Origin: a virus
DNA length: 29,563 nt
Reading direction: 5' to 3' (one strand)
IMG/VR virus record: IMGVR_UViG_3300004770_000076
Span: 1-29,563 of that record
Part shown: positions 288-27,763 of the stretch, one piece after another
Layout of the letters: each line of letters opens with the position of its first letter
Position numbering within the stretch: position 1 is the stretch's first letter
Notes under the pieces: model-generated
What the model saw: the letters and a program-made list of their open reading frames with translations, nothing else
Database searches by the model: none
Told to the model about the DNA's origin: nothing
Position numbers and translations under genes: made by a program

Positions 288-805
288 TGGATCCGATCAC
301 CATCTTTGCGGCGTGTAAAGCGGCTCATGCAGGGATTCGTGAGTGCATTGATCTCTACCAAGATTTCAAGAAAGACGGCAAAGAGGTTGGTGATATTGTC
401 AACGATATTGGCAGTCACCTTGGTGCGTTCTTTACCCATCAAGAGTCGTTCAAGGAGGCTGAGAAAGAAGCCAAGAAGAACCCTCTACCCAAGAACATCA
501 GCATCAATGAAGAGGCAATGAACAGAATTCTGCGCCAACAACAGATTGAACAGATGGAGACTGAACTTCGTGAGATGATTATTTATCAGGTTGGGATGCC
601 GGGTCTGTGGTCAAAATTCACAGAAATGCGAGAAGTTGTCCGAAAAGAGCGCGAAAAAGTCGAGCGTGAACAAAAAAAGCCCGTGAAGACGCCGATAGAA
701 AAAGGCGTCAATTCATTGCAAAGTGGGAGCTTCGGGGCGCGATTTGTGCAGGAATCATTGCGTGGCTCTTGGTCTTTGGCTCGCTTATGTACGGTATCCA
801 TCTAG
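287..805 (+). CDS. Coiled-coil protein, zero-frame product of a likely frameshifted gene
   Basis: The zero-frame product is 172 residues. Residues 1-131 are helical and charged (KEAEKEAKKN, then a long KERE-rich stretch), consistent with a cytoplasmic coiled coil. After residue 131 the zero frame runs 41 more residues with no clear character and stops at TAG 803-805, leaving 26 nt before the next gene. In the -1 frame the same DNA encodes a transmembrane helix and stops immediately before the next ATG, and a slippery heptamer A_AAA_AAG lies in phase at 673-679. The zero-frame tail therefore looks like a byproduct or a regulated short form. It lies between a small membrane protein and the holin. 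I recognise no family. Confidence 0.6.
   Translation: MDPITIFAACKAAHAGIRECIDLYQDFKKDGKEVGDIVNDIGSHLGAFFTHQESFKEAEKEAKKNPLPKNISINEEAMNRILRQQQIEQMETELREMIIYQVGMPGLWSKFTEMREVVRKEREKVEREQKKPVKTPIEKGVNSLQSGSFGARFVQESLRGSWSLARLCTVSI
673..715 (+). promoter_or_regulatory. Candidate programmed -1 ribosomal frameshift signal
   Basis: The heptamer at 673-679 reads A_AAA_AAG in the zero-frame phase, the classic bacterial X_XXY_YYZ slippery site. Downstream a perfect 6-bp stem pairs GACGCC (688-693) with GGCGTC (704-709) around a 10-nt loop. It can be lengthened by TGAA (684-687) pairing with TTCA (712-715) across a 2-nt bulge. The spacer from heptamer to stem is 8 nt, or 4 nt to the longer stem, within the usual range for stimulatory hairpins. 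The homopolymer means a sequencing deletion is the main alternative. Confidence 0.65.
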
Positions 806-831
806 ATTACCAAAAGTCGAAAGGACAATAA
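679..831 (+). CDS. Minus-one-frame extension encoding a C-terminal membrane anchor
   Basis: Reading on in the -1 frame after AAG 677-679 gives 50 residues: a basic stretch (REDADRKRRQF), a hydrophobic helix (GAICAGIIAWLLVFGSLMYG, about 742-795), and a short polar tail ending SKGQ. The stop TAA 829-831 directly abuts the ATG at 832. Joined to residues 1-131 of the gene at 287 this makes a 181-residue tail-anchored protein with positive charge beside the membrane. The segment is too long, too hydrophobic and too well placed to be an accidental frame. It lacks its own start codon with a ribosome site, so frameshifting, or a one-base sequencing loss in the A7 run, is needed to make it. Confidence 0.7.
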   Translation, partial: AREDADRKRRQFIAKWELRGAICAGIIAWLLVFGSLMYGIHLDYQKSKGQ

Positions 832-6887: not shown

Positions 6888-7925
6888 ATGGCAGATACCA
6901 CAACACCAACAAGTATAACGCAGTACCAAACAGGCTTTGCGCCTGAACTTGCTCCGTATGGTCAAGCAATGCTTGGACAAGCCGCGGCATTAACCAATGT
7001 AAACACAAACCCTTACCAACAGTATCAAGGCGAGACGACTGCGCAATTTAGTCCGTTACAACAGCAAGCGTTCAATAACGCGGCTACGATGCAGACTAAT
7101 CCCGCTTTGGGGCAAGCCACTGCCGCCTCGCAAGCCGCTACGCTTGGGGGGCTTAACACCCAGTACACATACAACCCGTACCAGACGCAGAGTTTTACAA
7201 GTCCGGGAATGGCTCAAAGCTACATGAACCCGTATTTGCAAGCATCCCTTGCACCGCAGTTGGCAATTCAACAACAGCAACAAGGCGCGGCACAACAAAC
7301 TCAAAATGCACAAGCCGCCCAAGCCGGGGCTTTTGGCGGTTCACGCGCTGGTGTACAGGCGGCGGCTACGGGCCTAAGTAATCAACTTGCCAATCAAAAT
7401 TTAATTGGCCAAGGCTACAACACCGCCTATAACCAAGGCGCACAACAGTTCAATACCGAACAAGGGGCGGGCCAACAAGCGGCTAACCTCAATGCTCAAC
7501 AAGGCCAGTTTGGTGCTAATCTTGGACTGCAAGGCTTAAATACAGCGCTTCAGGGAGCTAATACAACTGGCACGCTGGCCAATAATCAGTACAATCAAAA
7601 CATGGGGATCAATGCCTTGCAAGCTCAGTACGGTGGCGTACAACAACAGCAGATGCAAAACATTGATAATACCGCACAGCAGAATTTTCTTAACGCTCAG
7701 AACTATCCATACCAGCAGTTGAACTTCATGTCCAACTTGGTTCGTGGTTTACCAATGACTCAGCAATCTGCATCTGTGTATCAAGCACCTCCAAGTACGT
7801 TGTCTCAAGTGGCAGGCGCGGGTTTGACTGCCGCAGCTTTGTTAAAAGCCAAAGGCGGGGCAATTAAAAAATCAAATGGCCTGATGGACTTGGCACTAAA
7901 AAAAATGGAGCCTGAGAATGTTTAA
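6888..7925 (+). CDS. Gln/Ala-rich putative ejection (internal virion) protein
   Basis: This 345-residue protein is dominated by Gln, Ala, Asn and Gly. It contains runs such as IQQQQQGAAQQTQNAQAAQAGAFGGSRAGVQAAATGLSNQLANQNLIGQGYNTAYNQGAQQFN (about 125-190) that should form long helices. The C-terminus has a hydrophobic Ala-rich stretch (VAGAGLTAAALLKA, about 306-320) and a GGAIKKSNGLMDLALKK tail. The composition resembles small ejection proteins of podoviruses (the role of T7 gp14 or P22 gp7), and two larger ejection-type proteins follow. AAGGA lies before the ATG; the stop overlaps the next gene by 8 nt. Assignment is by composition and context only. Confidence 0.55.
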   Translation: MADTTTPTSITQYQTGFAPELAPYGQAMLGQAAALTNVNTNPYQQYQGETTAQFSPLQQQAFNNAATMQTNPALGQATAASQAATLGGLNTQYTYNPYQTQSFTSPGMAQSYMNPYLQASLAPQLAIQQQQQGAAQQTQNAQAAQAGAFGGSRAGVQAAATGLSNQLANQNLIGQGYNTAYNQGAQQFNTEQGAGQQAANLNAQQGQFGANLGLQGLNTALQGANTTGTLANNQYNQNMGINALQAQYGGVQQQQMQNIDNTAQQNFLNAQNYPYQQLNFMSNLVRGLPMTQQSASVYQAPPSTLSQVAGAGLTAAALLKAKGGAIKKSNGLMDLALKKMEPENV

Positions 7926-9887: not shown

Positions 9888-12800
9888 ATGGCTGAACAAC
9901 AGTACGTCCAACTACCCGATAATTCATATTACCCTCTCAGCAAAGGGGAAAGTGCGGCGCAAGCGTATGCAGTGGCTATGCAAAAATACCCCGAAGCGTT
10001 TGCCACAAAAGCTGTTGAAGCTGAAAAACCAAAAGCAGACACTGGTCTTCTGTCTGAACTTGGCGCAGGGTTTAGGGGCGGTGCAGGGTCAGCATTGTCG
10101 GGTTTGGGCGAACTGACAGGGCTGGAAGGGCTACGCGCCTATGGTGAAAAGCAAAAAGCCAAAGCCGCTGAAACGCCCGAAGCTGAAGGTATTTTGGGCG
10201 ATGTCGCTCGTGGTGCGGGTAGTATGGCTGGGCGGTTTGGGGCTCCGGTACTAGCAGGTATTGGGGCTACGGCCTTGTTGCCTGAAGCAATAGCATCCGC
10301 GCCTATCGTTGGTGCGTTAACCGCAGGGCGTCTTGCGGGAGCCGCAGGCTTTGCCGCGGTAGATGCGCCTACTAACATTGGTGAACATTTACAAGCTCAA
10401 AAAGCGGCGGGTCAAGAACCCAACATAGCCAAAGCCATTGCCGTGGGCGTTGGCCAGACTGCGCTTAATTTGTTGGGTGGTGAAGTCATTTCTAGCCCAA
10501 TGCGGAGCATCTTGGGTAAGACCGCCGCAGAACAAGCATCCGCTTTTGTGCCTGATATTCTTGCAGGCAAGATGACTGCGGAAGAAGCATCCAAGCAAGT
10601 GGGCGGATTTTTACGTAACTTTCTCCAAGGCACAGCGCAGAACGCGGCTGTAGGTACAGGTTTGATGGCAGGCAGTGAGGCTATGACCCGTGCAGGGCTC
10701 GGCCAAGATGTGACTTCTCCTCAAGCCATTGAGCAGTATATGGGCGCAGGCAAGTCTGCATTGGAGATGGCGCCGTTATTTGGTGCATTCCACGCTTACG
10801 GCGCTCGGGGTCAAGCCAGAGGTATTTTGGGTCAAGCGGAAGAAGCTCGCCAAGTGGGCGAGTCACAGAAAGCTGCACAGGCAGCATCTCTTGAAGCACA
10901 AAGAGTAGCTGATGAAGAAGCAAAAGCCGAAGCCCATAGACAAACGCCTGCATACGCTATAGATATTGGTAAACAATACGATGAAGCGTTGGCTAAACGT
11001 GATGAAATGCTTGCGGGTTTGGTTAAGCCTGAGAAAAGTGCTGACCCTGCCACTAGAGCGCAGTATGTGGCTGACCTCCAAGCTGTTAGAGAACATACTA
11101 AAAACACGTTGATGCCTTTGGTTCCTGAGTACAACCGTACTCGGGCATTGCGCAAACAAGAATTAGACAAACAACAAGCCGAAGCAGAAGCGCAGAAACA
11201 AGCTGATGCGCTTAAAGAACAGCAACGTCAAGCGGCTATTGAACAGCAAGCGGCGGGTATGCCCCAAGATGCACAAACTCTTGCATACCACCAAGAAACT
11301 CAAGGCACATTGCCCGGCATCGAGCCTGCGCCGAAAGCACCTGCACCCCCTAAAGCAGGCCCAACACCTGCGGAACTGTACGCACACTTGCAGTACTTGC
11401 AACGTCTTAAAGATGACCATCAAGCACAAGAACGTGAGATTGGCGTTAGTGGGGATTTAGATGCTTTTGAAGAATTTTCCAAACAGACCAATGCCGTTAA
11501 TAAAGCATACGCTGATACAGAGAAAGCATTGAAAGATGCGGGTGGTTTTAACGAAAACGAACCCCACCCCGCTCTTGCCGCACACGATGCTTACAATAAA
11601 GCGTACGACGAGTTCCATGCAAAGAGCAACATGGGCAGTGAAGAGGGCTACGACCGAGATAAAGCCCTGAAACTTTTGCCTAAAGTTAAGGCCGCAAAGG
11701 CGCATTTAGATGCAATCGTTGCCGAGCATGGCGAAGCGCCTGAAGCCGTACAACAACGCTTTGACTTTGGCCCTGAAGACAGAACGAACTACTTAGAGCC
11801 AAGAGCGGAATTTGCCGCACGCGTCTACAAGCCCGGTGCTCCTGAAGCAGAAGCCCAAGAGCAGGCTTTTATTGAAGAAGCTCGCCGTAGAGACGACGAA
11901 GAAAACGCACGCCTTGCCAAAGTTAATCCAGAAATTAGTGCCTTGGGCGCTATGGGGCTTAGGAAAAACCCTGAGTTACGTGCGGCAAATGAACTTGAGA
12001 ATGCACGCATTCTTAAAGGTATGCCCGAAAGACAAGCCAAATTGGCGGGGGCAGAACAACAAGATTTGTTTGGCACAGGTAATGTTTTAAACGAACCTAA
12101 AGAATTGCCCAAAAAGACACGCCCTGAAGATCGGTTGTATCGTCAGTTGGAAAGGGCATTTGCCGAAGACCCCAGCAGATGGTTACCTGAACAGCGCAGA
12201 CTTCTTGAGCGCGTATCCGAAAACTTGGATGTCATTGAACTAAGTCCCAAGCGCATGGAAATGGTGTCGGATTGGCTATACCACATTGACCATAATCGGT
12301 CGATGGAAAAGCTGGCTACCAAAGAAGGATTAAAGTACGTTAAGCGTGAAGACTTCCGCGCCAAAGAACTGACGGCAGAACTTGATCGCATGGAAGAGGG
12401 CAAGCGCTCGGAGACCGAGGGCGGTAAGACTGCGGTGCAAGGCGAACTTAAACTTGGCGAAACTACCGAAGCCAAAGGCCGACTGTTCAATACTCCCCAA
12501 GAATTCCAAGCGTATTTGGCAGGAGATGCGCTCAATGATATGCGCCGTTCAATGGGGCTTGTTCACCAAACAATGTCTAGGATCAGCCAACGTGTTGCGC
12601 CTATGCAGGCCAGAGCCGAAAGTCTTTTAAAGCAAGTAACGGGTTTACAAACGCAGTACGAGAAACTGAAAGAAGCTAAAGGCACAGAGATTGCCGACGC
12701 CAATAAGATGGTGCTTGACGCCAAGAAACGCCAGTCAGCGTTGACTCAGCGTTTGGATGAAGAGTTAAAAGATTTGCAAGCGGCGTACATCAAAGCCAAG

Positions 12801-15800
12801 ACTGAGTTTGACTTTGCTGTTCAAACATCCCACGATATCAGCAAGAATTTTGCCGCCAATGAAATTGGCGAGTTGGCCGATAAGGTAGTTGCCGCTAAAG
12901 CGGCAATGATGCAGGCAATGAAAAAGCCCGCCACCAAAAGCAACTGGGATGCAATGCGAGCCGAACAAGCCAAGGTGGTTGCCGCTGTTCGTGAACACCG
13001 CAACTACTTAAATAGAATGCACCGTGACCCAGAAGGGTTCTTGAACCGTGACTTGGATTTCCAATTGCAGTTACAGCATGAGCTTGACTCAATGGGCGCG
13101 CTACAACACAATTTGACCGCCGCTAAGTTTGACTTGGACATGGCTGTTGAGAAGCAACAACGTAGCCGCAAAAACAAAGCAGAAGCCAAAGCATCTGCAA
13201 CAGAACTTGAAACAGCAGAAAAAATTAAAGCTGAAGCGGTAGCCGCCAATGAAGCGCGAGACAAAGAAGCCGCTGAAATAATTGAACAAATTAAATCTTT
13301 AGACGACCGCCGTAGAAACCTACAACGAGTTGTTGATGAGCATTTGGGTCGTAGCAAAGCAGTTGCAAGCGAGCGTGCTGGCCCTGCTTTGGTGGAGTCT
13401 CAAGCGGAACGCGAGCTTAAAGATGGCGCGGCGCGCATTAAAGAACAGCAAAGTTTGGAAAGACTTGAAGCATTGCCGGGTGAAGAAATTTCTTTTGAGC
13501 CTCGCCGCAAAGTCTTGGATAAACTTAATATTACGCCTGACCATTTGGAAGCGCTTGATGAAAGTATTAAAGATGCCGATCAAGTAGTTAAGCACATTGA
13601 GGCGCTTAATGTTAAACGCCGAGTTGAGATTGAAGAAAAACAAAAACAAAAAGCCGGTACAAAAGATACAACGGTAAAAGAAGAAATTGAAAAAGACATT
13701 GCTAAGCGTCAAGAAGGTATTGTCAAGGGCAATGAAGACATTCAAAAAATTGAAAAGATTAAAGAGGATTTGCACGCTGAGATTGTAAACAAGACCGCAG
13801 ATGTAACAAAGTACAACGAGTTGCTTTCTAATGATCCCGAGATTGCCAATGCGGCGCTTAAAATAGTGCATGATCGCATACCCAAAGTACTGAAGTTGAT
13901 TGAAACGGTTCAAAGTCGTTTAAAAGAAACTGACGTCAAGCCTTCCGTTAAAGCTAGCCGTGTTCGGGATTTGCGCAATTACAAAAAAGAACTTGCAGAA
14001 TTGGAAGCCAAAGCCAATTTAATGCGCGGTATTGAGCGCAGGCCAGTTGGCGGTAGTAAAGAAATGCTGAAGACCGAGGCGGTGGAAGCGGGTACTAGAT
14101 TGCCTTCAAGGGTTATTGGCCCCGTGGTCAAGCCTGTTGTAACTGCGGGTAATATCCGCACTGGGGAAGGCACAACTGTATCCGAGCGCAAACTACCTCC
14201 TAAAAATAAAGCCACACAAGCTGGTGAAAAACGTGGCCTGACATCTACGCAAGCACAACGCGGCGCTAATAAAGACATTGAAAAAGGCTTGTTTAAAAAC
14301 GTTGAGAAAACGCCTCAAGAACCCGTCAGTGGCAAGTACACTGCCGAGCAACGTCCCAAAATTGCACCAAAGAAAAAAACCAACAATGATCTTTTGTTGG
14401 AACACGATGCTTTAACAGACGAAATTGCAGAGAACGAACGGAAACTCCATCAAGCGGAAATGGATGACGACAATGAAGCGGCGACCAAATATGAAGCGCT
14501 AGGCGTTGAGTTGGAGAAAAAGCTCGAACAAGTTGAAGAGCAAATGGATCAGCACAAGCCCACAGTATTGCGCACTTCCACCAAGCAAGGCGCTGGCATG
14601 AAAGCGGAAACCATTAAAAATATGGTTGACCGCATGACCCATGAGTGGGAGAAAATGCCTGATGTTGAGATCGTAGACACTGAGAAAGATTTGCCAGAGC
14701 ACATTCGGAACCAGTTAACGAAAGACGAGAAAACAGGTTTAGTTCCCGGCTTATACGACCCGACTACCAAGAAAGTGTATCTTATTGCATCAAACTTGCA
14801 CGACCAACAAGATGTAGTGCTGACTGTCTTGCACGAGATTGCAGGACACCACGGACTGCGTGAACTGCTTGGTGATACGTACGAGAGTACGATGAACAAA
14901 ATGTACGAAGGCAACAAAGCGCTACGTGAAAAAGTAGACGCTCGCATGAAAGCAGAGCCTAAGTTGTCTCGTGAGATAGCGGTTGAAGAGACACTTGCTG
15001 ACATGGCAGAAGAAGCCCCAAGAGCCAACGAACGTGGGCAAAATGTCTTTCGCAGAATTGGCTATGCAATTAAACAATGGATTGCCAAGATGTTTGGCAT
15101 CACCCACGTATCAGATGAAGAAGTTCTACAACTCGTTGCAAACGCACGACGCTATGTCAAAAAAGGCTTGGGCGCGGCAGGAGGTGAGTCTGGGTTCCGT
15201 CATTTTTTATATAGGACAACTCCAGAGTACGGCGCTAAAACGCCCCTTACTGAATTTACAAACAAGGTAGTTGCGCAACCGAAGACTTGGCGTGAGAAGT
15301 TGGGAAACTTTGCGTGGCTCCAAGCTGAGATGAACAACGTGGACATGCGGGCAGGTGTGCGGGAAGCTCTGCGCCTTGGCGCTAAAGCTACGGGGGATAG
15401 CCGTTCCTACGAGCAAGCCATGTACAACATTACCAAGGCCGACCAAAAGAGCTCGTTCACTAGATCGGTTCTTTTGAATGGTGGCCCCATTTTGTACACC
15501 GATGAAAAAGGTTTCCGTGGTGTTAAGGCTGCTGGCGGTGTGACTTACATGGATATCATGAAGCCTATATCCGACATCCCAGGCGGCAATGCCAGAGGCA
15601 AGATAGATCAAGCTACCGCTTATTTTATTGCGGTGCGCGCAGGCAATAAAGGTTTGGCTAAATTAGATCTTGGCGCTTTGGGCGTGACGGAAGCTGAGTT
15701 AAAAGCTGTTAAAGATACTGTTGATGCCGACCCAAGACTTAAAGCTGCATTGGAAAAGTCACGCTCGGCTTACAATGAGTACAACAAAAACTTAATTAAC

Positions 15801-17909
15801 TGGCTTGCGTCTACTGGCGCTATACCCAAGGGCGTTGCTGAACAGTTGCTTAAAGAAGGCGATTACGTTCCGTTTTACCGCATTAAAGAAAACGGCCAAG
15901 CCGATCTAGTGTTTAGCTCTGCTGTGACCATCAACATTGGGGACATCCGTCATCAGCCTTATTTGCATGAACTCAAAGGCGGTGAGACCAAAATCATGCC
16001 GCTTGATGAATCCATTCAGCGCAACACCACATTAATTGTAGACAAAGGCTTAACCAACTTGGCGGTCAAGAACACCGCATATGCCATGCAAAAGTTTGGT
16101 GAAGGCCACGGGCCAGTGAACCCCATCACAGGCAAGCGCGAGAATCTGATGCCAATTCACAGGGGTCATGGCCCTGCTGATCCCAATATTATTCGCTTTA
16201 ATCAAGAACCTGATCCTGCTGTCAAAGACGACACAGGCGAGCGTTGGTTAAAGATTAAGACTGACGGCACTGTGCTTGGCGGTATTCCTGCGGAGATTGT
16301 TATCCAAAGTTTGGAAGGCGCGCATTTAACTTTGCCCGCATTTCTAAAACTAGGCGGTCTTTTTGGGGATGTGTTGCGCTCTGGCGTGACGCGCTCACCG
16401 TTGTATGCTTTGCGCCAGTTGATTAAAGATCCGATGTCTATGGCCTTTACTGGCGGGTTGGACTACGGCCCACTGCGAGCTGTGCTCAAAGCAGGTACAG
16501 CGTTCATTGACATGAGTCGTGGAGACAGCAAAACAGAAGCCAAACTAATTGAAAAAGGTTTGATTCAAAGTGGAATCTTTACGGGCGATCAAAGCGATAT
16601 GGCCAAGTTTGCTTTGCAATTGGCAAGCGGTAAGGATGCGAACGCGATAACCCGACTGTTTGCTATGGCCGACAGAGTGGCAATGCGCGCTGACTCTGCA
16701 ACCCGTGTATTGGTTTATGAGAATGCCATTAAGAGAGGGCTGTCCGAGACGCAAGCGGATATGTTCACAATGGAATCCATGAACTACTACAAGCGCGGTT
16801 TGTCTCCCACGTTGCAGTACGCCAACCGCATGATACCTTTCTTTAACTCGCAGATTCAGGGCTTGAACGTACTGTACAAGGCAGCGCGTGGTCAGATGCC
16901 TTACGAAGAGCAGTTAAAGATTAAACAAAAATTCATGAACAATGCCATGATGCTGATGGGCGCGGGCTTGGTTTATGGTATGGCCATGCAAGACGACGAG
17001 TACTACATGAACGCCAAGCCGAAGGATCGCTACAGCAACTTCTTCTTACACTTGCCCGGCCTTGATGAGCCAATGAAATTGCCTTTGCCTTATGAAGCAG
17101 GCTATTTCTTCTCAGCCGCAGTTGCCGCAGTGGATGCAATGGTTGGTAAAACCGATACCAAGCAACAACTCAAGGCGCTTAAAGATATGTTCTTGAACTC
17201 TGTGCCGGGCTACACTTCGGACTTTATACCGCAGATAGCCAAGCCTGCTTTTGAAGTTGCGTTCAACCACGACTTTTATACGGGCGACAATATCGAGTCC
17301 AACAGTATGCAACGCAAGAGCATCGATGAGCGCTACAACAATGCGACTACTGAGTGGGCTAAAGCCATGTCCAAAGCGATCCCTGTGTTGTCACCAATTC
17401 AAACTGACTACATAGTCAAGGGTTACTTAGGCCAGTTGCCTATTGCCGCCCTGAAAGCGGCGGATGGCTTGTTCAAACCCGCAGAGACAGGCGAGAAACC
17501 TGCTATGCGCGCGTCAGACTTGCCTATCATTGGCGGGCAGTTCCAACGCAAATATGGCGGTGCAGAGACCGATGTCGTATATGGGCTGGCCAAACAAGCT
17601 ACTGAAGCGTCTGACTCCTACAAGAGTCTACTAAAACAAGGCCGAAGAGATGACGCCAAAGAGTATCTTGAAAATCATCGCGGGGAGATTTACGCGGCGG
17701 GCGCTTCAAGAAGGTTTGAAAAAGTCATGGGCGCATTGCGTCTTCAAGAAGATATTGCTCGCTCCAATAAAAACATGACGCCTGATGAGAAGCGTGCAAA
17801 GCTCGATAGCTTGGATGCGTTAAAGCAAAAAGAAGCAAACTTGTTTATGAAAGCTATTAAGGACGCAGAGGCCCGCGGTGAAAAAGCACCCCAATTAGCC
17901 CTGCCCTAA
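9888..17909 (+). CDS. Giant polyvalent ejected protein with HExxH metallopeptidase motif
   Basis: This 2,673-residue protein fills 27% of the window. The N-terminus (LPDNSYYPLSKGESAAQAYAVAMQKYPEAF) is followed by a long Gly/Ala hydrophobic region (about 50-300) that could insert in membrane. Extensive Ala/Glu/Lys coiled coils run to about 1570. A protease-like domain has HEIAGHHGL at 1649-1657 and a candidate third ligand in VEETLADMAE (Glu1700 or Glu1701), suggesting a gluzincin zinc peptidase. The C-terminal third (about 2140-2560, SPLYALRQLIKDPM, YANRMIPFFNSQIQG) matches my memory of large polyvalent protein domain LPD38. Such proteins are packaged and injected. It begins 2 nt after the preceding stop and has no separate promoter visible. 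Confidence 0.75.
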   Translation: MAEQQYVQLPDNSYYPLSKGESAAQAYAVAMQKYPEAFATKAVEAEKPKADTGLLSELGAGFRGGAGSALSGLGELTGLEGLRAYGEKQKAKAAETPEAEGILGDVARGAGSMAGRFGAPVLAGIGATALLPEAIASAPIVGALTAGRLAGAAGFAAVDAPTNIGEHLQAQKAAGQEPNIAKAIAVGVGQTALNLLGGEVISSPMRSILGKTAAEQASAFVPDILAGKMTAEEASKQVGGFLRNFLQGTAQNAAVGTGLMAGSEAMTRAGLGQDVTSPQAIEQYMGAGKSALEMAPLFGAFHAYGARGQARGILGQAEEARQVGESQKAAQAASLEAQRVADEEAKAEAHRQTPAYAIDIGKQYDEALAKRDEMLAGLVKPEKSADPATRAQYVADLQAVREHTKNTLMPLVPEYNRTRALRKQELDKQQAEAEAQKQADALKEQQRQAAIEQQAAGMPQDAQTLAYHQETQGTLPGIEPAPKAPAPPKAGPTPAELYAHLQYLQRLKDDHQAQEREIGVSGDLDAFEEFSKQTNAVNKAYADTEKALKDAGGFNENEPHPALAAHDAYNKAYDEFHAKSNMGSEEGYDRDKALKLLPKVKAAKAHLDAIVAEHGEAPEAVQQRFDFGPEDRTNYLEPRAEFAARVYKPGAPEAEAQEQAFIEEARRRDDEENARLAKVNPEISALGAMGLRKNPELRAANELENARILKGMPERQAKLAGAEQQDLFGTGNVLNEPKELPKKTRPEDRLYRQLERAFAEDPSRWLPEQRRLLERVSENLDVIELSPKRMEMVSDWLYHIDHNRSMEKLATKEGLKYVKREDFRAKELTAELDRMEEGKRSETEGGKTAVQGELKLGETTEAKGRLFNTPQEFQAYLAGDALNDMRRSMGLVHQTMSRISQRVAPMQARAESLLKQVTGLQTQYEKLKEAKGTEIADANKMVLDAKKRQSALTQRLDEELKDLQAAYIKAKTEFDFAVQTSHDISKNFAANEIGELADKVVAAKAAMMQAMKKPATKSNWDAMRAEQAKVVAAVREHRNYLNRMHRDPEGFLNRDLDFQLQLQHELDSMGALQHNLTAAKFDLDMAVEKQQRSRKNKAEAKASATELETAEKIKAEAVAANEARDKEAAEIIEQIKSLDDRRRNLQRVVDEHLGRSKAVASERAGPALVESQAERELKDGAARIKEQQSLERLEALPGEEISFEPRRKVLDKLNITPDHLEALDESIKDADQVVKHIEALNVKRRVEIEEKQKQKAGTKDTTVKEEIEKDIAKRQEGIVKGNEDIQKIEKIKEDLHAEIVNKTADVTKYNELLSNDPEIANAALKIVHDRIPKVLKLIETVQSRLKETDVKPSVKASRVRDLRNYKKELAELEAKANLMRGIERRPVGGSKEMLKTEAVEAGTRLPSRVIGPVVKPVVTAGNIRTGEGTTVSERKLPPKNKATQAGEKRGLTSTQAQRGANKDIEKGLFKNVEKTPQEPVSGKYTAEQRPKIAPKKKTNNDLLLEHDALTDEIAENERKLHQAEMDDDNEAATKYEALGVELEKKLEQVEEQMDQHKPTVLRTSTKQGAGMKAETIKNMVDRMTHEWEKMPDVEIVDTEKDLPEHIRNQLTKDEKTGLVPGLYDPTTKKVYLIASNLHDQQDVVLTVLHEIAGHHGLRELLGDTYESTMNKMYEGNKALREKVDARMKAEPKLSREIAVEETLADMAEEAPRANERGQNVFRRIGYAIKQWIAKMFGITHVSDEEVLQLVANARRYVKKGLGAAGGESGFRHFLYRTTPEYGAKTPLTEFTNKVVAQPKTWREKLGNFAWLQAEMNNVDMRAGVREALRLGAKATGDSRSYEQAMYNITKADQKSSFTRSVLLNGGPILYTDEKGFRGVKAAGGVTYMDIMKPISDIPGGNARGKIDQATAYFIAVRAGNKGLAKLDLGALGVTEAELKAVKDTVDADPRLKAALEKSRSAYNEYNKNLINWLASTGAIPKGVAEQLLKEGDYVPFYRIKENGQADLVFSSAVTINIGDIRHQPYLHELKGGETKIMPLDESIQRNTTLIVDKGLTNLAVKNTAYAMQKFGEGHGPVNPITGKRENLMPIHRGHGPADPNIIRFNQEPDPAVKDDTGERWLKIKTDGTVLGGIPAEIVIQSLEGAHLTLPAFLKLGGLFGDVLRSGVTRSPLYALRQLIKDPMSMAFTGGLDYGPLRAVLKAGTAFIDMSRGDSKTEAKLIEKGLIQSGIFTGDQSDMAKFALQLASGKDANAITRLFAMADRVAMRADSATRVLVYENAIKRGLSETQADMFTMESMNYYKRGLSPTLQYANRMIPFFNSQIQGLNVLYKAARGQMPYEEQLKIKQKFMNNAMMLMGAGLVYGMAMQDDEYYMNAKPKDRYSNFFLHLPGLDEPMKLPLPYEAGYFFSAAVAAVDAMVGKTDTKQQLKALKDMFLNSVPGYTSDFIPQIAKPAFEVAFNHDFYTGDNIESNSMQRKSIDERYNNATTEWAKAMSKAIPVLSPIQTDYIVKGYLGQLPIAALKAADGLFKPAETGEKPAMRASDLPIIGGQFQRKYGGAETDVVYGLAKQATEASDSYKSLLKQGRRDDAKEYLENHRGEIYAAGASRRFEKVMGALRLQEDIARSNKNMTPDEKRAKLDSLDALKQKEANLFMKAIKDAEARGEKAPQLALP

Positions 17910-18019: not shown

Positions 18020-20956
18020 TTAAGATGCTTCCACGGAAGGCGCATCGTCTTCTTCTCTTCTTGAGATTTTCATAACTGCCACACGCATTTGCGGGCCATT
18101 GGTCTTGGACATCAAGTCCTTCTTGGGGAGATACGCCACAGAGTACTGGCGCTCCATCTGCTTCTTAAAGTCCGCGTAACCAAAGCTCATGGAAGAACAG
18201 AATGATCGGAGCAAGCGCTCTTCAATATAGAAGTCCTTGCACCCTGCGGTAATGCCGTTTTCCACACGCCCCATCACGCTAGACTTGGTGGTTGATCTGT
18301 CGATTGCAGAACCATCCCCCATATACGATGCGGCTTTCTCTCCATAGTTAACAACCACAAACTTACCCCAAAACTCCCTGATGAAGCCGTTGAGCACATC
18401 CTCGGCTGTTCGCTTATTGCCTTTGATGTTAGCGCGCATATATTCAATGCGCTTGTGTAAAGAGTTGATGATCGCATCCATTGGAAACTCTGCGATGCCC
18501 GCGTGCTTAGTGTTCATAGTAATACCCGCCGCAATGATTGTCCCAATACCCGCCATCCAAAAGCGCTCGTCGTTTGATGCTTTGAACTCCACGTACATAT
18601 TACGCACACACTCTGGTACCAGCTTGGCTAAATAGGGCGTATTGTCCACCATGTACTGCACAAGCGCATCCCCTGCCACAGCGTAATTGTTGGCTAAAGA
18701 CTTAAGTATCTCGATCTCTGACGGCTCCCAAGTCAGCTCTTCATCCATCACAAACTCGATTAAACGCCGTAATTCACCTTCAGCCGAGTGTTTTCTCTCG
18801 CCCGTCAGCTTGTCCACAATGTGCGTGTTTGAGGACATGATCGCATTGGTCATCCATGTGGACAAGTTGATGCGCTCTTTATTCGAGCCCGACTCCATGC
18901 GCTCTTTACCACGGCCTTCAGTCATGTCCAATAAAAACTCAGGAAACCATTCAAAGTCATTTCTGTTCTTGGAAGTAATCTCGTCTGTTATCAATGGGCA
19001 ATTGTTGAGTAGTCCAAGTCGCTGTTGCATGGCCACGGGAGAAGTCCCTTTACCTGTACGATAGTGCACAGGGTGACCCCAAATAGAAGCCGCGCCTTCA
19101 AGAGCAAGTGACTTACCTGTCCCCGACTCAGTGCTTCCGCAATGATACGTAAGACCATAAAACCCCGTAAACCGCATGAGGGGAGCGCCTGCACCCGCAA
19201 GAATGACCGCAAGGTGGTCATACATTTTCTTTCGTATAAAGAGGTTAATAACTTCACGCCAGTTCTCTAGCGTGCCTGTGGGTTGTGTATTGGCTACGAT
19301 ATTCTCTAAGCCGGGCATGGGCACGGGTACTGGCTCGCTGTCCTTAGAATATATCTTACCTGCAAACACAAAACTTTCATCAGCTTGCCAACCATAGCTT
19401 GATGGAACATCGATGGGGGATTTTTCTGTACTCATTTTTTCTACGCACGCCCTTATGTAAGCCGCTAAATTGTTATCGTTACCTGCACCAAAAGCGGCCA
19501 CAATGTTTTGGCTCGCCAATGATTTGACTGTCTCATCCTTGCTTACCACCGCCTTCTGCGGTAGTGTGACTGTCTGCGCGCCATTGGTACGCAAGGCAAG
19601 CATATGGACTGTGTGTTCGCCTGCGTTATGCAAGATGTCTACGGGAAACAAGTCGTACGGCAGTATCATCACTTGTCTCACCATTTTGTTGCCGTGTGCA
19701 TCTTCGTCTTCTTTTTCCATGAACACGCCACCCCTAACGCCATACGCGTAGCCTCTTGGGGTTTCGGGTCTCTGTACTTTGGTTGTCTCCTCTTTACCAT
19801 TTGTTACCGCGGTGAGTTCAATTGTTTTCTCAGTGGTGGTCACCGCTGTGGATCGCCCCAAGATTAAGGGGTTGGTGATCTTACCCCAGTGAATACAACT
19901 TGGACATACCCCCGGGTTTTCACCATCTAACTTAGTGCATGGATATGGGCCTTTGATTTGGCTTAACTTCTCGTGCATTCTGTCGTGTGAGTACGGGTGC
20001 ATATCACTCAACCAGATTGCTGCCCTTGCGCCATCATCACACTTCTGTGCAAGACTTAACAAACCACGCCACAAAGGTTCCATGCCATCATCACTAGCGT
20101 TGTTAACATAATGGTCGAGTTGATTACACCCGCCACCCTGCGCAGTCAGCTTAATGATTTTGCCAAACTTAGTGCTTGAGTTCTCAAAGAGTTTGACACT
20201 GGTCGCCCCCACGGGAGCAACGCCAGGCAGTACCAACGAGGTGCTCGGCTTTGTCTTGGGCAAAGTTTCATACGCCGTGCCTACTAGCTTTTGGGTTATC
20301 AGCGCCCTGAAGTCTTCAAAGTCAAAGAAGTCGCCCTCGTTCTTGAAACGCACGTTAGTCACCTCTCGTACGCGCTTGTCACCCTTGACGCCGTTGTTGA
20401 GCGTATCAGGCACACGCAGTACACGAGACGCATCTCCCGTCACCGTTGGATCAATGGCTAGCTTGTGTTGAAAGCACAAGCGCTTGAAGCCTTGGGCTAC
20501 GGGTTCCCACTCTGATTTGGGCACAGCTTCTTTCAAAGGCCAGTAAGCGTGAACGCCACCGCCCGATGCCACTAGCCAAGGGCTACCCATGTCACTCAGC
20601 CCAATCACATCGCAAAAATCAATGATTGCTTTAGCCGCCGCTTGCGCATTGGGGTAAGCCTTCTCTTTGATAATGCCCTGCTCGTTGGGCAAGTCCTTGG
20701 GATGATTACAGTCTACGTCAATGGCAACACACTTGACCATTTGTACATTAGTTTGAACGCGTTTCTTCTCGCTACCAAATGTACCAAGGGCAAAGTAAAT
20801 GTCGTAGTTGCGGTTTTTCCATGTGTCCAGTTTTTCTTGCGCTTCTTCTAATGTGTCAACATAGAAGTGTTCTTTTTTCTTGGTGAGTTCTACCACGCAA
20901 TAGCGTCCGTTACCCGGTGGCGGTAGAACCGCCGCCATAAACTCTAGCGGTTCCAT
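18020..20956 (-). CDS. Primase-helicase (archaeo-eukaryotic primase plus DUF927-like helicase)
   Basis: This 978-residue protein probably makes primers and unwinds the replication fork. Residues 70-185 carry archaeo-eukaryotic primase motifs: IDVD (Asp80, Asp82), SGGGVHAYWP (Ser131, His136) and GDASRVLRVPDT (Asp175, Arg178). A cysteine cluster follows (Cys340, Cys351, Cys354, with Cys277 and Cys306 upstream) that may bind zinc or an iron-sulfur cluster. The C-terminal half is a P-loop ATPase: Walker A GSTESGTGKS (607-616) and Walker B LITDE (655-659), in the DUF927 style. AAAGGA lies just before the chosen ATG; another ATG 4 nt upstream is out of frame. It is the last gene of the minus-strand unit. 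Confidence 0.85.
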   Translation of the reverse strand: MEPLEFMAAVLPPPGNGRYCVVELTKKKEHFYVDTLEEAQEKLDTWKNRNYDIYFALGTFGSEKKRVQTNVQMVKCVAIDVDCNHPKDLPNEQGIIKEKAYPNAQAAAKAIIDFCDVIGLSDMGSPWLVASGGGVHAYWPLKEAVPKSEWEPVAQGFKRLCFQHKLAIDPTVTGDASRVLRVPDTLNNGVKGDKRVREVTNVRFKNEGDFFDFEDFRALITQKLVGTAYETLPKTKPSTSLVLPGVAPVGATSVKLFENSSTKFGKIIKLTAQGGGCNQLDHYVNNASDDGMEPLWRGLLSLAQKCDDGARAAIWLSDMHPYSHDRMHEKLSQIKGPYPCTKLDGENPGVCPSCIHWGKITNPLILGRSTAVTTTEKTIELTAVTNGKEETTKVQRPETPRGYAYGVRGGVFMEKEDEDAHGNKMVRQVMILPYDLFPVDILHNAGEHTVHMLALRTNGAQTVTLPQKAVVSKDETVKSLASQNIVAAFGAGNDNNLAAYIRACVEKMSTEKSPIDVPSSYGWQADESFVFAGKIYSKDSEPVPVPMPGLENIVANTQPTGTLENWREVINLFIRKKMYDHLAVILAGAGAPLMRFTGFYGLTYHCGSTESGTGKSLALEGAASIWGHPVHYRTGKGTSPVAMQQRLGLLNNCPLITDEITSKNRNDFEWFPEFLLDMTEGRGKERMESGSNKERINLSTWMTNAIMSSNTHIVDKLTGERKHSAEGELRRLIEFVMDEELTWEPSEIEILKSLANNYAVAGDALVQYMVDNTPYLAKLVPECVRNMYVEFKASNDERFWMAGIGTIIAAGITMNTKHAGIAEFPMDAIINSLHKRIEYMRANIKGNKRTAEDVLNGFIREFWGKFVVVNYGEKAASYMGDGSAIDRSTTKSSVMGRVENGITAGCKDFYIEERLLRSFCSSMSFGYADFKKQMERQYSVAYLPKKDLMSKTNGPQMRVAVMKISRREEDDAPSVEAS

Positions 20957-22999: not shown

Positions 23000-24559
23000 T
23001 TAATATTTAATTTCGTTCTCGAACATCTGGGTGATAAGTAAGTTATCACTCACCTTGGCACTCAAAGCCTTGAACATCTTCTTCTCAATGGGCGAGCCCT
23101 CGATGTGGATCACCGTGACCTTATCCGAGTCTTGCCCCTTGCGATCAGCCCGCGCTATGGCCTGTGTGTACTGCTCCACGCTCATCAATGGGCCATAGAA
23201 CACCACTGTATCCGCTCTCGTTAATGTGATCCCGTGTGCCGTGGCTTGGGGTTGCATAACAAGTACCCTAGGGTTTTCCTCATTCTGGAATCTCCTAATG
23301 ATGTCCGAGCGTTTAGGTGGGGATACCGCGCCATTGATGAACTCTGCGGCAATACCGCGCTTGAGCAAGTGCGCATGGATTGTGGATATCGTTGAGCGGA
23401 ACATGGCAAACACAATGACTTTGCGATCCGTCTCTTCGAGTATCTCTTCCAACACACCGAGCCTTGGCGCAGAGTCAAACTCCACCACTTCGTTGTCATC
23501 GGTATAAGCCGCACCGCAACTGATCTGCAAGAGCTTACTCACAGCAACCGCCGCATTGACTGCGCTGATCGTCTCGCCTGCGGCTTGCACAAGCATCTGC
23601 TCTTTAAGCAGGTTGTAGTACTTGGCTTGCTGTGGGGTGAGCGGTACTTCGCGGGTCATGGTGAGCACTGGCGGTAAGTCCAAGCATTGATCCTTGGTGA
23701 ACCTGATTGCAGGTTGTAGCGCTTCATGCACTACGTCTTTGGCTTCGGGCTTTGGAGCCCACTTGTACATGGTCATCTTGTTCATAACCTTGTCACGCCA
23801 ACCCGTATAGAACATCGGCACGCCCGTGGGATTCACGAGCTTGGCAAGTCCATACGCATCCACAGGCGACTGTGCGGCGGGTGTCCCCGTCATCATCCAC
23901 AAGTGTGTGTCGGGCTTGATGATTGACTTCAATGCCTTCCACCGCTTGGTGGTCACCGTCTTGTAGGCGTTAGCCTCATCCACGATCACAAGATCAAAGC
24001 GCCCATCATTGTTAACCTCATTGGCAATCAGATTCAAACCATCGTAGTTTGTGATGACGAACTCATAGTTCTGCTGAATCATCTCGATCCTGCGGGTAGC
24101 CTGCGCATGGTGCGCGACAACGGCAGAGCGATGGATAACACTGTTGTTCAAGTCTGATAACCATGCAGCTTGCATGATGGATAGGGGGCAGAGAATCAAG
24201 CAACGCCTGACATCCCCACGATTCATCAAGTAGTCAGCCGCCCATAGTGCGGATAGCGTCTTGCCTGTGCCCGGCTCGGAGAATACAAACGCACGTTTGT
24301 GCATGGTCAAGAACGCAGAGGTTTCAACCTGATGCGCCATTGGTTTGAATCGACCCGGCCATGTGTAGCGCCTAGTGATGGGCGAGGGTACGTCTTTGAC
24401 ACCTAAGTTTCTTAGAACGCGACACTCATCCAACCCCCAGTACACCGCCACCTCGTACCCATCATCTAGCTCAAAGACCTTGTGTTTTGGAATGATGCTG
24501 TATTTGGCTGGGTTTCTTGTGCGGAACACCAGAGCTTTATCTTCCACAATTTGCATCAT
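23000..24559 (-). CDS. SNF2-type DNA helicase/translocase
   Basis: This 519-residue superfamily 2 ATPase has a Q-like motif (KPMAHQVE, 72-79), Walker A EPGTGKT (95-101), motif Ia (LILCPLSIM, 121-129) and Walker B VIVDEAN (191-197). DEAN replaces the usual DEAH. Motif III is MMTGTPA, and motif VI QAIARADRKGQ lies near residue 470. Motif V/VI spacing and the final RxGQ-like element place it in the SNF2 group, as in phage helicases that assist replication or recombination. Two consecutive ATGs at 24559 and 24556 give Met-Met; the first overlaps the stop of the HNH gene as ATGA. It ends the first minus-strand unit before a promoter-like gap. Confidence 0.88.
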   Translation of the reverse strand: MMQIVEDKALVFRTRNPAKYSIIPKHKVFELDDGYEVAVYWGLDECRVLRNLGVKDVPSPITRRYTWPGRFKPMAHQVETSAFLTMHKRAFVFSEPGTGKTLSALWAADYLMNRGDVRRCLILCPLSIMQAAWLSDLNNSVIHRSAVVAHHAQATRRIEMIQQNYEFVITNYDGLNLIANEVNNDGRFDLVIVDEANAYKTVTTKRWKALKSIIKPDTHLWMMTGTPAAQSPVDAYGLAKLVNPTGVPMFYTGWRDKVMNKMTMYKWAPKPEAKDVVHEALQPAIRFTKDQCLDLPPVLTMTREVPLTPQQAKYYNLLKEQMLVQAAGETISAVNAAVAVSKLLQISCGAAYTDDNEVVEFDSAPRLGVLEEILEETDRKVIVFAMFRSTISTIHAHLLKRGIAAEFINGAVSPPKRSDIIRRFQNEENPRVLVMQPQATAHGITLTRADTVVFYGPLMSVEQYTQAIARADRKGQDSDKVTVIHIEGSPIEKKMFKALSAKVSDNLLITQMFENEIKY

Positions 24560-25789: not shown

Positions 25790-27763
25790 TTAGTTTTTAG
25801 CTTCACCGTATCGTCTATGTGCGCCACCCTCTGCGTCAAGCGGTATGCCCGGCATATACAGCGGCTCCATAGTCATTTGATCCAAGACCCAAGTCTTGGC
25901 TTCTTCCACCTCGGCATCTGGCACGACGGCGATTAGCTCGTCGTGTACTGTGCCTGCTATGAAGTATCTTTTGGATACTCTGAGCATTCCGTCTGTCATC
26001 ACAATGCGTGCGAGCGCCTGTGTGACGTTGTTCGTTATCTTTCCTGAGTACAGCTTGGTAGCGTCTGGCCCGTATACATACTGGCTCCTACCCTTGTCAT
26101 CCTTCTCAATCCTCAAATTGGGATAAAGAAGTTTCATTCCATTGGGCAATTCTATTTCTTCTTTGCGGAATGTCAAGCATTTATATTTGTACTCTTTTCC
26201 GTGGTACAGACTGTCCGTCATCAACCCCGCGCACATATCCCAAAATGAGACCACCTGAGACGCGGTGCTACGATAGATATCGATAATCTTCTTGGATGCC
26301 ACAGCGTGCACCAATAGCTCCGGATCGCTACAGGTGTGTGGGATTTCCTCCAAGCGGATGACGTTATCATCCCAATCAAGAAAGCGGTTGATGTACTCGG
26401 CATCAACTTTCAACGTCTTAGCAAAGGCTTTCTCATACCTGATCGGCGGCGCCCCGAGAAACCCTGTGAGTAATTGCGAGGCAAACGATGCCCACCCGAG
26501 ACCATACCCACAGCCAAGTAATGCGCTTTTTGCAGACTGCCTAAGCTCAGGGTGTGTTTCTTTACTAAGGCCGGGAATGTTAAACATCTGTGCGCCAAAC
26601 GCGGCGTAAGGGTCACGACCGCTCCGGAAGATGTTAAGCATATCTTCGTAGTCACTAAGCCATGCGAGGACACGCGGTTCAATCTGCGATAAGTCTCCGA
26701 CAACCAATTGGTAGTTTTCGGGAGCCATAATTGCTTGTCGTAGGAATGACTTTCGTTTGAGGTTTTGCATATTGATGGCCGAGCCTTTTGCCGCCGACCA
26801 GCGACCCGATTTCGCGCCATAGTACGAGAGCGGAACTGGTAGACTACCTCGCTGACTGATGTCCAAGAACCTCTGCGCCCTTGTGCGTTCCGTGGTTGAT
26901 TTAACCCGTAGACGCGCTTCACATAAAAGGGCAACGTCTTCACGTTCACCGTTGAGGAGCGCTTGAAAAAGAGCATCATTCTTGGCGAGAGCGAGGGTTT
27001 CTTTCCCTGTTGTTTTGCTGATCTTTGTAGGTGGAACCACCCCGAGTTTTTGTAGCTGTTCAGCAAACTTTGGGTTCGACGCGAGTTCAACTTCTTCCAC
27101 GCCGAGAGTCTGTAATAAAGTTTCACGGGAATTCCTTTCGTCTTCAATGGCATTGGACAGCATGAGCGGGTCAAGCTTTAACACTGGTTGAGTAAACATC
27201 TTCAAGGTCATGTCGATCAAGTCCAGCTCTTTGGCGGGGTAGCGATGCGCAAGTCTCGTGAATATTTCTTCGCACAGATACACATCGTGCTTGCAGTAGT
27301 CTGCTAACTCTCGCTCCACATCGGGGGGTAATCCCTCCACACCGTCCAGTCCCTCTGTGGAGTGAACGGCGTTTCCTTTAGGGGGCAACCCAAAATCTGA
27401 TGCGAGCTTGGCCAAAGAGTTCCCAACTTCCACGCCTCGTAGAGCTCGTGCCATTGATAGGGAGTCAAAGATAAAGCAGGGGTGGACGTTGTACGCCCAT
27501 TCAAGAATTGCGATGTCGAATTGTGCGTTATGAGCAAGGACTGCTGTTCGTCCCCAGTTGATATTTGAAAAGAGTTCAGGTAGTTCTGATCCGCTATACC
27601 ATTCAATTGGATCTGCGCTTCCATATTCATGGATGCAAGCTCCGAATGCTTTGAATCTCTCATCGCGTATGTACTCCTCGGTGGTCATCTTCGATAGCGT
27701 GTAGTCAGCTTTAGACCAACGCGTCTCGAAGTCAATGGTTAGTATGCGGTCGTACTGTTTCAA
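25790..27763 (-). CDS. Family A DNA polymerase with 3'-5' exonuclease domain
   Basis: This 657-residue replicative polymerase has a DnaQ-like proofreading domain at the N-terminus: Asp11 and Glu13 in LTIDFETRW, AHNAQFD, and DYCKHDVYL. The polymerase domain has motif A GDLSQIEPR (catalytic Asp357), motif B RQSAKSALLGCGYG and motif C VHDE (His607, Asp608, Glu609). It should copy the phage genome. The start is TTG at 27763, supported by AAGGAG 7 nt upstream and because the first ATG (residue 26) would remove the exonuclease motif. The upstream stop TGA overlaps it (TTGA). Length is close to other phage family A enzymes that lack a 5' nuclease domain. Confidence 0.92.
   Translation of the reverse strand: MKQYDRILTIDFETRWSKADYTLSKMTTEEYIRDERFKAFGACIHEYGSADPIEWYSGSELPELFSNINWGRTAVLAHNAQFDIAILEWAYNVHPCFIFDSLSMARALRGVEVGNSLAKLASDFGLPPKGNAVHSTEGLDGVEGLPPDVERELADYCKHDVYLCEEIFTRLAHRYPAKELDLIDMTLKMFTQPVLKLDPLMLSNAIEDERNSRETLLQTLGVEEVELASNPKFAEQLQKLGVVPPTKISKTTGKETLALAKNDALFQALLNGEREDVALLCEARLRVKSTTERTRAQRFLDISQRGSLPVPLSYYGAKSGRWSAAKGSAINMQNLKRKSFLRQAIMAPENYQLVVGDLSQIEPRVLAWLSDYEDMLNIFRSGRDPYAAFGAQMFNIPGLSKETHPELRQSAKSALLGCGYGLGWASFASQLLTGFLGAPPIRYEKAFAKTLKVDAEYINRFLDWDDNVIRLEEIPHTCSDPELLVHAVASKKIIDIYRSTASQVVSFWDMCAGLMTDSLYHGKEYKYKCLTFRKEEIELPNGMKLLYPNLRIEKDDKGRSQYVYGPDATKLYSGKITNNVTQALARIVMTDGMLRVSKRYFIAGTVHDELIAVVPDAEVEEAKTWVLDQMTMEPLYMPGIPLDAEGGAHRRYGEAKN

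Follow-up and report, generated by a model that had tools for sequence, protein, structure and literature searches.

A conserved signal for probable -1 ribosomal frameshifting that would add a membrane anchor to a protein encoded next to phage lysis genes

Background

Does an uncultured phage use a ribosomal slip near the 3' end of a small gene to make a soluble and a membrane-anchored form of one protein? The question is raised by a 29.6-kb virus record (IMGVR_UViG_3300004770_000076; 29,563 nt), the whole of which was analysed and is called the window below. Its plus strand exhibits an ORF of 172 aa (positions 287 to 805) containing the slippery heptamer A_AAA_AAG, which ranks among the top three heptamers in E. 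coli when stimulators are present (PMC4066793). The original prediction placed the site in a phage lysis cassette and interpreted it as a programmed -1 frameshift by which a membrane anchor is added, and regarded an A lost from the A7 run as an equally good explanation. The comparative evidence presented here is drawn wholly from related uncultured phages.

Results

The heptamer lies at positions 673 to 679 (plus strand), where the zero frame reads CAA (671-673), AAA (674-676) and AAG (677-679); this codon reading confirms that it is in phase. Upstream lies a mostly helical N-terminal domain of 131 aa, common to both predicted products. Beyond the site the zero frame adds the 41-residue tail already described, ending at 805. 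The -1 frame extension (673 to 831, plus strand), read from position 673, gives 52 residues, KKAREDADRKRRQFIAKWELRGAICAGIIAWLLVFGSLMYGIHLDYQKSKGQ, followed by a TAA stop (829-831) that abuts the ATG of the next gene at 832; the hydrophobic helix and the stop flush against a start codon are as had been claimed. The predicted transmembrane (TM) helix, GAICAGIIAWLLVFGSLMYGI (736 to 798, plus strand), is recognized from the sequence and from the hydropathy of relatives, and the slip product would be a protein of 181 aa composed of the shared domain and this C-terminal helix. A basic stretch (KRRQF.AKW.LR) precedes the helix in the -1 frame. Under the positive-inside rule, basic residues before a helix predict a cytoplasmic N-terminal domain.

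A TGA codon in the -1 frame (667 to 669, plus strand), two codons before the heptamer, is found in all 61 distinct sequences of the close clade described below. Since it closes the -1 frame upstream, that frame can be entered only by a slip or by internal initiation. The heptamer occurs in phase only once within the 28.7 kb of annotated coding sequence of the window, and as this sole copy is also kept by 61 distinct relatives, its presence is more than chance. Two other A-runs were noted in the window. An A8 run (7898-7905) places A_AAA_AAA in phase near the end of the gene at 6888-7925; the next gene starts about 20 nt later, with an ATG at 7918, and a -1 shift would miss its frame. A second A7 run (30-36) forms an in-phase A_AAA_AAA (GCA AAA AAA) in a small lysine-rich gene truncated at the start of the window.

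With the 181-aa fused protein as query, a protein search of IMG/VR recovered 80 loci; additional scans, one using a divergent member and one an alignment, enlarged the close clade to 199 records, of which 197 are intact and exhibit 61 distinct sequences around the site. A_AAA_AAG is present in the same phase, as exactly A7-G, in every intact record (197/197; 61/61 distinct sequences). The two non-intact records (L002 and L275) represent one contig, with the same A7-G and a one-base insertion just upstream. In L002 (1136-1672; the contig is shared with L275 and L406) the insertion precedes the counterpart of GAGCGTGA, an element discussed below, and puts the gene out of frame until it ends at a TGA; it is an assembly error or a broken copy. 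The relatives are far from identical, the upstream part of the gene having a median nucleotide identity of 76% (24% difference), and at least 9 to 14 lineages (clusters below 80-85% nucleotide identity) keep the heptamer. The probability of obtaining it from the same codons by chance is about 0.08 per independent lineage.

These data bear directly on the suspicion that an A was lost from an A8 run, the true gene being single-frame, or that the tail is a relic of a decayed gene. A one-base change would indeed yield the single frame found in distant relatives. However, at least 77 distinct sequences, taken from many metagenome assemblies, have seven A, and independent assemblies all show exactly seven, which refutes the lost A. 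Sequencing error is rejected on this conservation of A7 among relatives, and strong purifying selection on the -1 frame, together with synonymous constraint at the site, makes error or decay together hardly credible. In the overlap past the slip, dN/dS among relatives is 0.11 in the -1 frame versus 1.2 in the zero frame; the -1 frame beyond the slip is under purifying selection, and the zero frame there is not. The zero-frame tail varies from 26 to 41 residues in relatives, with variable stops and sequence, and so resembles a stopping place rather than a domain.

Constraint on the nucleotide sequence extends upstream of the heptamer. Within the 50 codons that precede the slip, most positions that allow more than one codon have high synonymous entropy, and it is high over codons -50 to -13. 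It is zero at five codons, namely GAG (-6), CGT (-5), CAA (-3), AAA (-2) and AAG (-1), the first two of which fall outside the heptamer. They belong to GAGCGTGA (662 to 669, plus strand), a Shine-Dalgarno (SD)-like element that was absent from the original prediction and that its invariance and duplex energy make a candidate stimulator. The synonymous sites of this GAG CGT GA, located 3-10 nt upstream of the heptamer, are invariant in 61/61 sequences. Against the 3' end of 16S rRNA, the predicted pairing of the element is GAG-(C)-GUGA, which needs a bulged C. Glu-Arg-Glu can be encoded in 24 synonymous ways, of which those with GAG CGT form the most stable anti-Shine-Dalgarno duplex, with an energy of -8.2 kcal/mol versus -7.4 for the approximate dnaX SD stretch in the same calculation. 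The SD forms used as proven stimulators are GAGG, GGAG, AGGA, GGNGG and AGGKG (PMC4066793); GAG-C-GUGA is outside these.

An SD-like sequence could also serve as a ribosome binding site, the -1 frame then encoding a separate small TM protein by internal initiation. Besides the SD-like character of GAGCGTGA, this reading draws on the presence of an ATG, GTG or TTG in the -1 frame before or at the helix start in 41 of 61 relatives. The other 20, the window included, have none of these among the initial 22 codons of the -1 frame, and the candidate starts that exist lie at least 12 nt from the SD, at differing codons. The TGA in 61/61 sequences and the absence of a start codon in 20/61 argue against a separately initiated protein. 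Internal initiation, which also leaves the invariant A7-G unexplained and ignores that distant relatives have the TM helix fused to the same domain, is rejected on the 20 sequences without a start codon; we give it very little probability.

Downstream of the heptamer, the window exhibits the predicted 6-bp GC-rich stem (688-709), with the core GACGCC (688-693)/GGCGTC (704-709) beginning 8 nt past the heptamer. The claim that it is extendable is also correct (683-687/712-716), giving a stem-loop at 683 to 716 on the plus strand. In the window alone, folding of the 101-nt downstream region is unremarkable (z -0.8). A 40-nt sliding folding profile of 30 representatives, compared with dinucleotide shuffles, exhibits a single sharp energy minimum starting 1 to 6 nt past the heptamer (means -11.4 and -9.9 kcal/mol; z -2.0 and -2.1); from about 150 nt upstream to about 120 nt downstream, no other 40-nt segment folds as well as the one just past the heptamer. 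Against synonymous recodings that preserve the -1 protein, the mean folding z is -1.55. Folding past the heptamer is weak in five relatives, and the stem register varies between tail types. RNAalifold returned no consensus structure for 46 sequences, and pair counts in two subgroups revealed no compensatory changes in the stem. A single conserved stem across the clade is rejected on these two results; with no shared register, consensus or two-sided changes, the downstream structure is supported by energy and not by covariation. The original prediction had looked to relatives for conservation of the heptamer, the hairpin and both frames: the heptamer is kept and the -1 frame is conserved, whereas the zero frame is unconstrained and the hairpin has no shared register.

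The same A-run might act on RNA polymerase, which by adding or dropping an A in A7 would allow normal translation to give the fused protein. All relatives keep the run, and homopolymer slippage is a known recoding route (PMC5009743). Against this transcriptional slippage, every relative has precisely seven A, in a single phase and with G next, although longer runs or other phases would be tolerated. Seven A are short for slippage of bacterial polymerases. The invariant GAGCGTGA and the downstream structure would act on ribosomes, not polymerase, and we know of no conserved frame change at the A7 and A8 runs in other genes of the window. We consider transcriptional slippage improbable, if somewhat less so than internal initiation.

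The reach of the signal was surveyed by scanning IMG/VR with the 18-nt motif GAGCGTGANSAAAAAAAG, the counts being lower bounds. Among the motif matches listed, 111 are in newly opened loci, and of these 100 fall in this gene with a -1 TM tail, one match missed by the pattern filter having been classed by eye; the remaining 11 of the 111 are in other places with no comparable -1 extension. The listed matches also include divergent homologues with the same signal (L336, L375 and L401; 42% identical in protein), in which a stem is present and a 93-residue -1 tail carries a TM helix. In these homologues (about 1490-2170 in L375) the zero frame meets no stop for about 95 codons, which makes both products long, and L336 and L401 encode a further domain-plus-TM protein just downstream. 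At L075 (1706-2247), a domain of the L072 type is joined to a tail of the type found in L037 and the window. This arrangement gives the slip signal, together with the tail, the look of an exchange module.

The shared domain of the window protein matches the phrog_32327 profile (E-value 3.8e-6, residues 1-132), the C-terminal TM helix of which is reached in the window gene solely via the -1 frame. More distant relatives encode the domain followed directly by the TM helix in one frame: Limnohabitans phage DC31 (L083), the Roseobacter phages CRP-x (L317-L320), Manatee Spring phages and many IMG/VR contigs. All the single-frame relatives tested match phrog_32327, annotated as of unknown function; the phrog_32327 proteins of the CRP-x phages and DC31 are without a slip site before the helix. 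L258 and L259 are single-frame genes with an in-phase A_AAA_AAG at differing places (offsets 353 and 404 from the gene start, respectively) upstream of the TM helix; a slip there would delete the anchor. The single-frame sequences confirm the domain plus TM helix as a natural protein. Two scans of bacterial genome contigs found no relatives, and the window protein has no Pfam match. AlphaFold modelled a single-frame relative poorly except for the C-terminal helix (mean pLDDT 65.8), and a Foldseek search gave nothing below E 1.

A tree built on the shared domain places the two frameshift groups near each other; the best tree implies two changes, and one is also compatible. Since domain and TM helix share one frame in the more distant relatives, anchoring is probably ancestral and the soluble product a by-product acquired in the frameshift clade, as judged from a tree whose root is not fixed. 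Where the original framing took the anchor as the addition, the family tree suggests that the anchor is older and the soluble product the novelty.

The neighbours of the gene, all on the plus strand, bear on its role. Upstream, 93 to 287 encodes a 64-aa protein with a coiled-coil-like region and one TM helix, by sequence; its positional counterpart in Limnohabitans phage DC31 has a match (E-value 0.003) to a PHROG that carries the annotation 'hemolysin'. Downstream are a putative holin-like protein with two hydrophobic helices (832 to 1332; phrog_1544, function unknown, E-value 2.5e-16; GTA_holin_3TM, E-value 0.53) and an endolysin of the peptidase M15_3 type (1329 to 1763; phrog_894, E-value 1.2e-32; PF08291, E-value 1.8e-16). 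Elsewhere, the window encodes a very large 2673-aa virion-region protein (9888-17909) and, on the other strand, replication genes: a family A DNA polymerase (25790-27763), a SNF2-type helicase (23000-24559) and a DUF927 protein (18020-20956).

In 61/61 clade contexts, one or more lysis genes (holin-like, Rz, M15 endolysin or lysozyme) are found downstream. The lysis genes differ between phages; in L090, for example, they are a lysozyme and Rz. The single-frame relative in MW202701 sits between an annotated holin and a peptidase M15. Other relatives adjoin terminase genes (L375, CRP-603 and CRP-7) or tail genes (CRP-345 and CRP-13). The window protein has no Pfam or PHROG match to the holin, antiholin or spanin families. 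The assignment to a lysis cassette therefore stands by position in the clade, but single-frame relatives elsewhere, next to tail-fibre or terminase genes, do not share it. A lysis role is plausible from gene position, lysis genes lying downstream although some relatives adjoin terminase or tail genes.

Discussion

We consider it highly probable that the site directs programmed -1 ribosomal frameshifting of the dnaX/IS type, setting the ratio of soluble to membrane-anchored protein. The comparison of related sequences demonstrates the signal, its conservation and the selection on the -1 frame; the slippage and its frequency we infer. The invariant heptamer, the conserved -1 frame and the local structure give strong comparative support to the frameshift and its membrane anchor as first proposed. 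Ribosomes on AAA-AAG would pause at the stem, held by an SD-like contact (GAGCGTGA, 662-669), and both tRNA-Lys would re-pair one base back at A_AAA_AAG (673-679). Those that do not slip would stop at 805 and release the soluble 172-aa protein; those that slip would stop at 831 and give the 181-aa protein, tail-anchored in the inner membrane with its domain in the cytoplasm. The anchored form, common to the phrog_32327 family, would be the probable working protein, and the frameshift would lower and fix its share while adding a soluble competitor or partner. As a speculation that we think rather unlikely, though worth stating, the soluble product might antagonise or titrate the anchored one or the neighbouring holin, so that slip efficiency sets the burst time; a single-frame membrane protein would then have been made into a two-product switch in one lineage.

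The slip mechanism is of a known bacterial kind. E. coli dnaX exhibits the same in-phase heptamer, with an SD-like element upstream and a stem-loop shortly downstream; in the phage GAG ends 8 nt before the heptamer, compared with 10 nt for AGGGAG of dnaX (MG1655 record). In contrast to dnaX, the phage SD-like pairing requires a bulged C, the stem has no one conserved register, and the slip lengthens the product by a TM helix whereas that of dnaX shortens it. Among phages, a recoding review names tail chaperones and coat proteins as frameshift cases (PMC5009743). The tail assembly chaperone gene of lambda (G/GT) and its relatives, as described there, also uses a -1 slip near the 3' end of a dsDNA phage gene to add a C-terminal extension at a fixed product ratio (PMC5009743). 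The present gene is not a tail chaperone: its neighbours are holin-like and endolysin genes, it precedes lysis genes and not the tape measure, and its extension is a membrane anchor. The coat proteins of T7 (10A/10B), T3 and Lactobacillus phage A2 similarly have a minor, C-terminally extended form made by -1 frameshifting, according to the same review (PMC5009743), but they are structural proteins with Ig-like or other extensions and not membrane proteins. The phrog_32327 proteins of the Roseobacter phages CRP-x and Limnohabitans phage DC31 have the same domain and C-terminal TM helix, but in one frame. A literature search, with most subscription papers outside its reach, found no case of frameshifting linked to a holin, lysis or a membrane anchor, and the word 'holin' is absent from the available part of a 2016 recoding review. 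A frameshift that decides membrane anchoring in a phage lysis cassette thus appears undescribed.

Conclusion

A compact signal is predicted to split one gene into a soluble and an anchored protein in the lysis cassettes of many uncultured freshwater phages. Gene callers would annotate the 172-aa ORF alone and overlook the membrane form; screening phages comparatively for the three-part signal should reveal more cases. Since the family includes single-frame members, how the frameshift was gained and why both products are kept can be tested directly.
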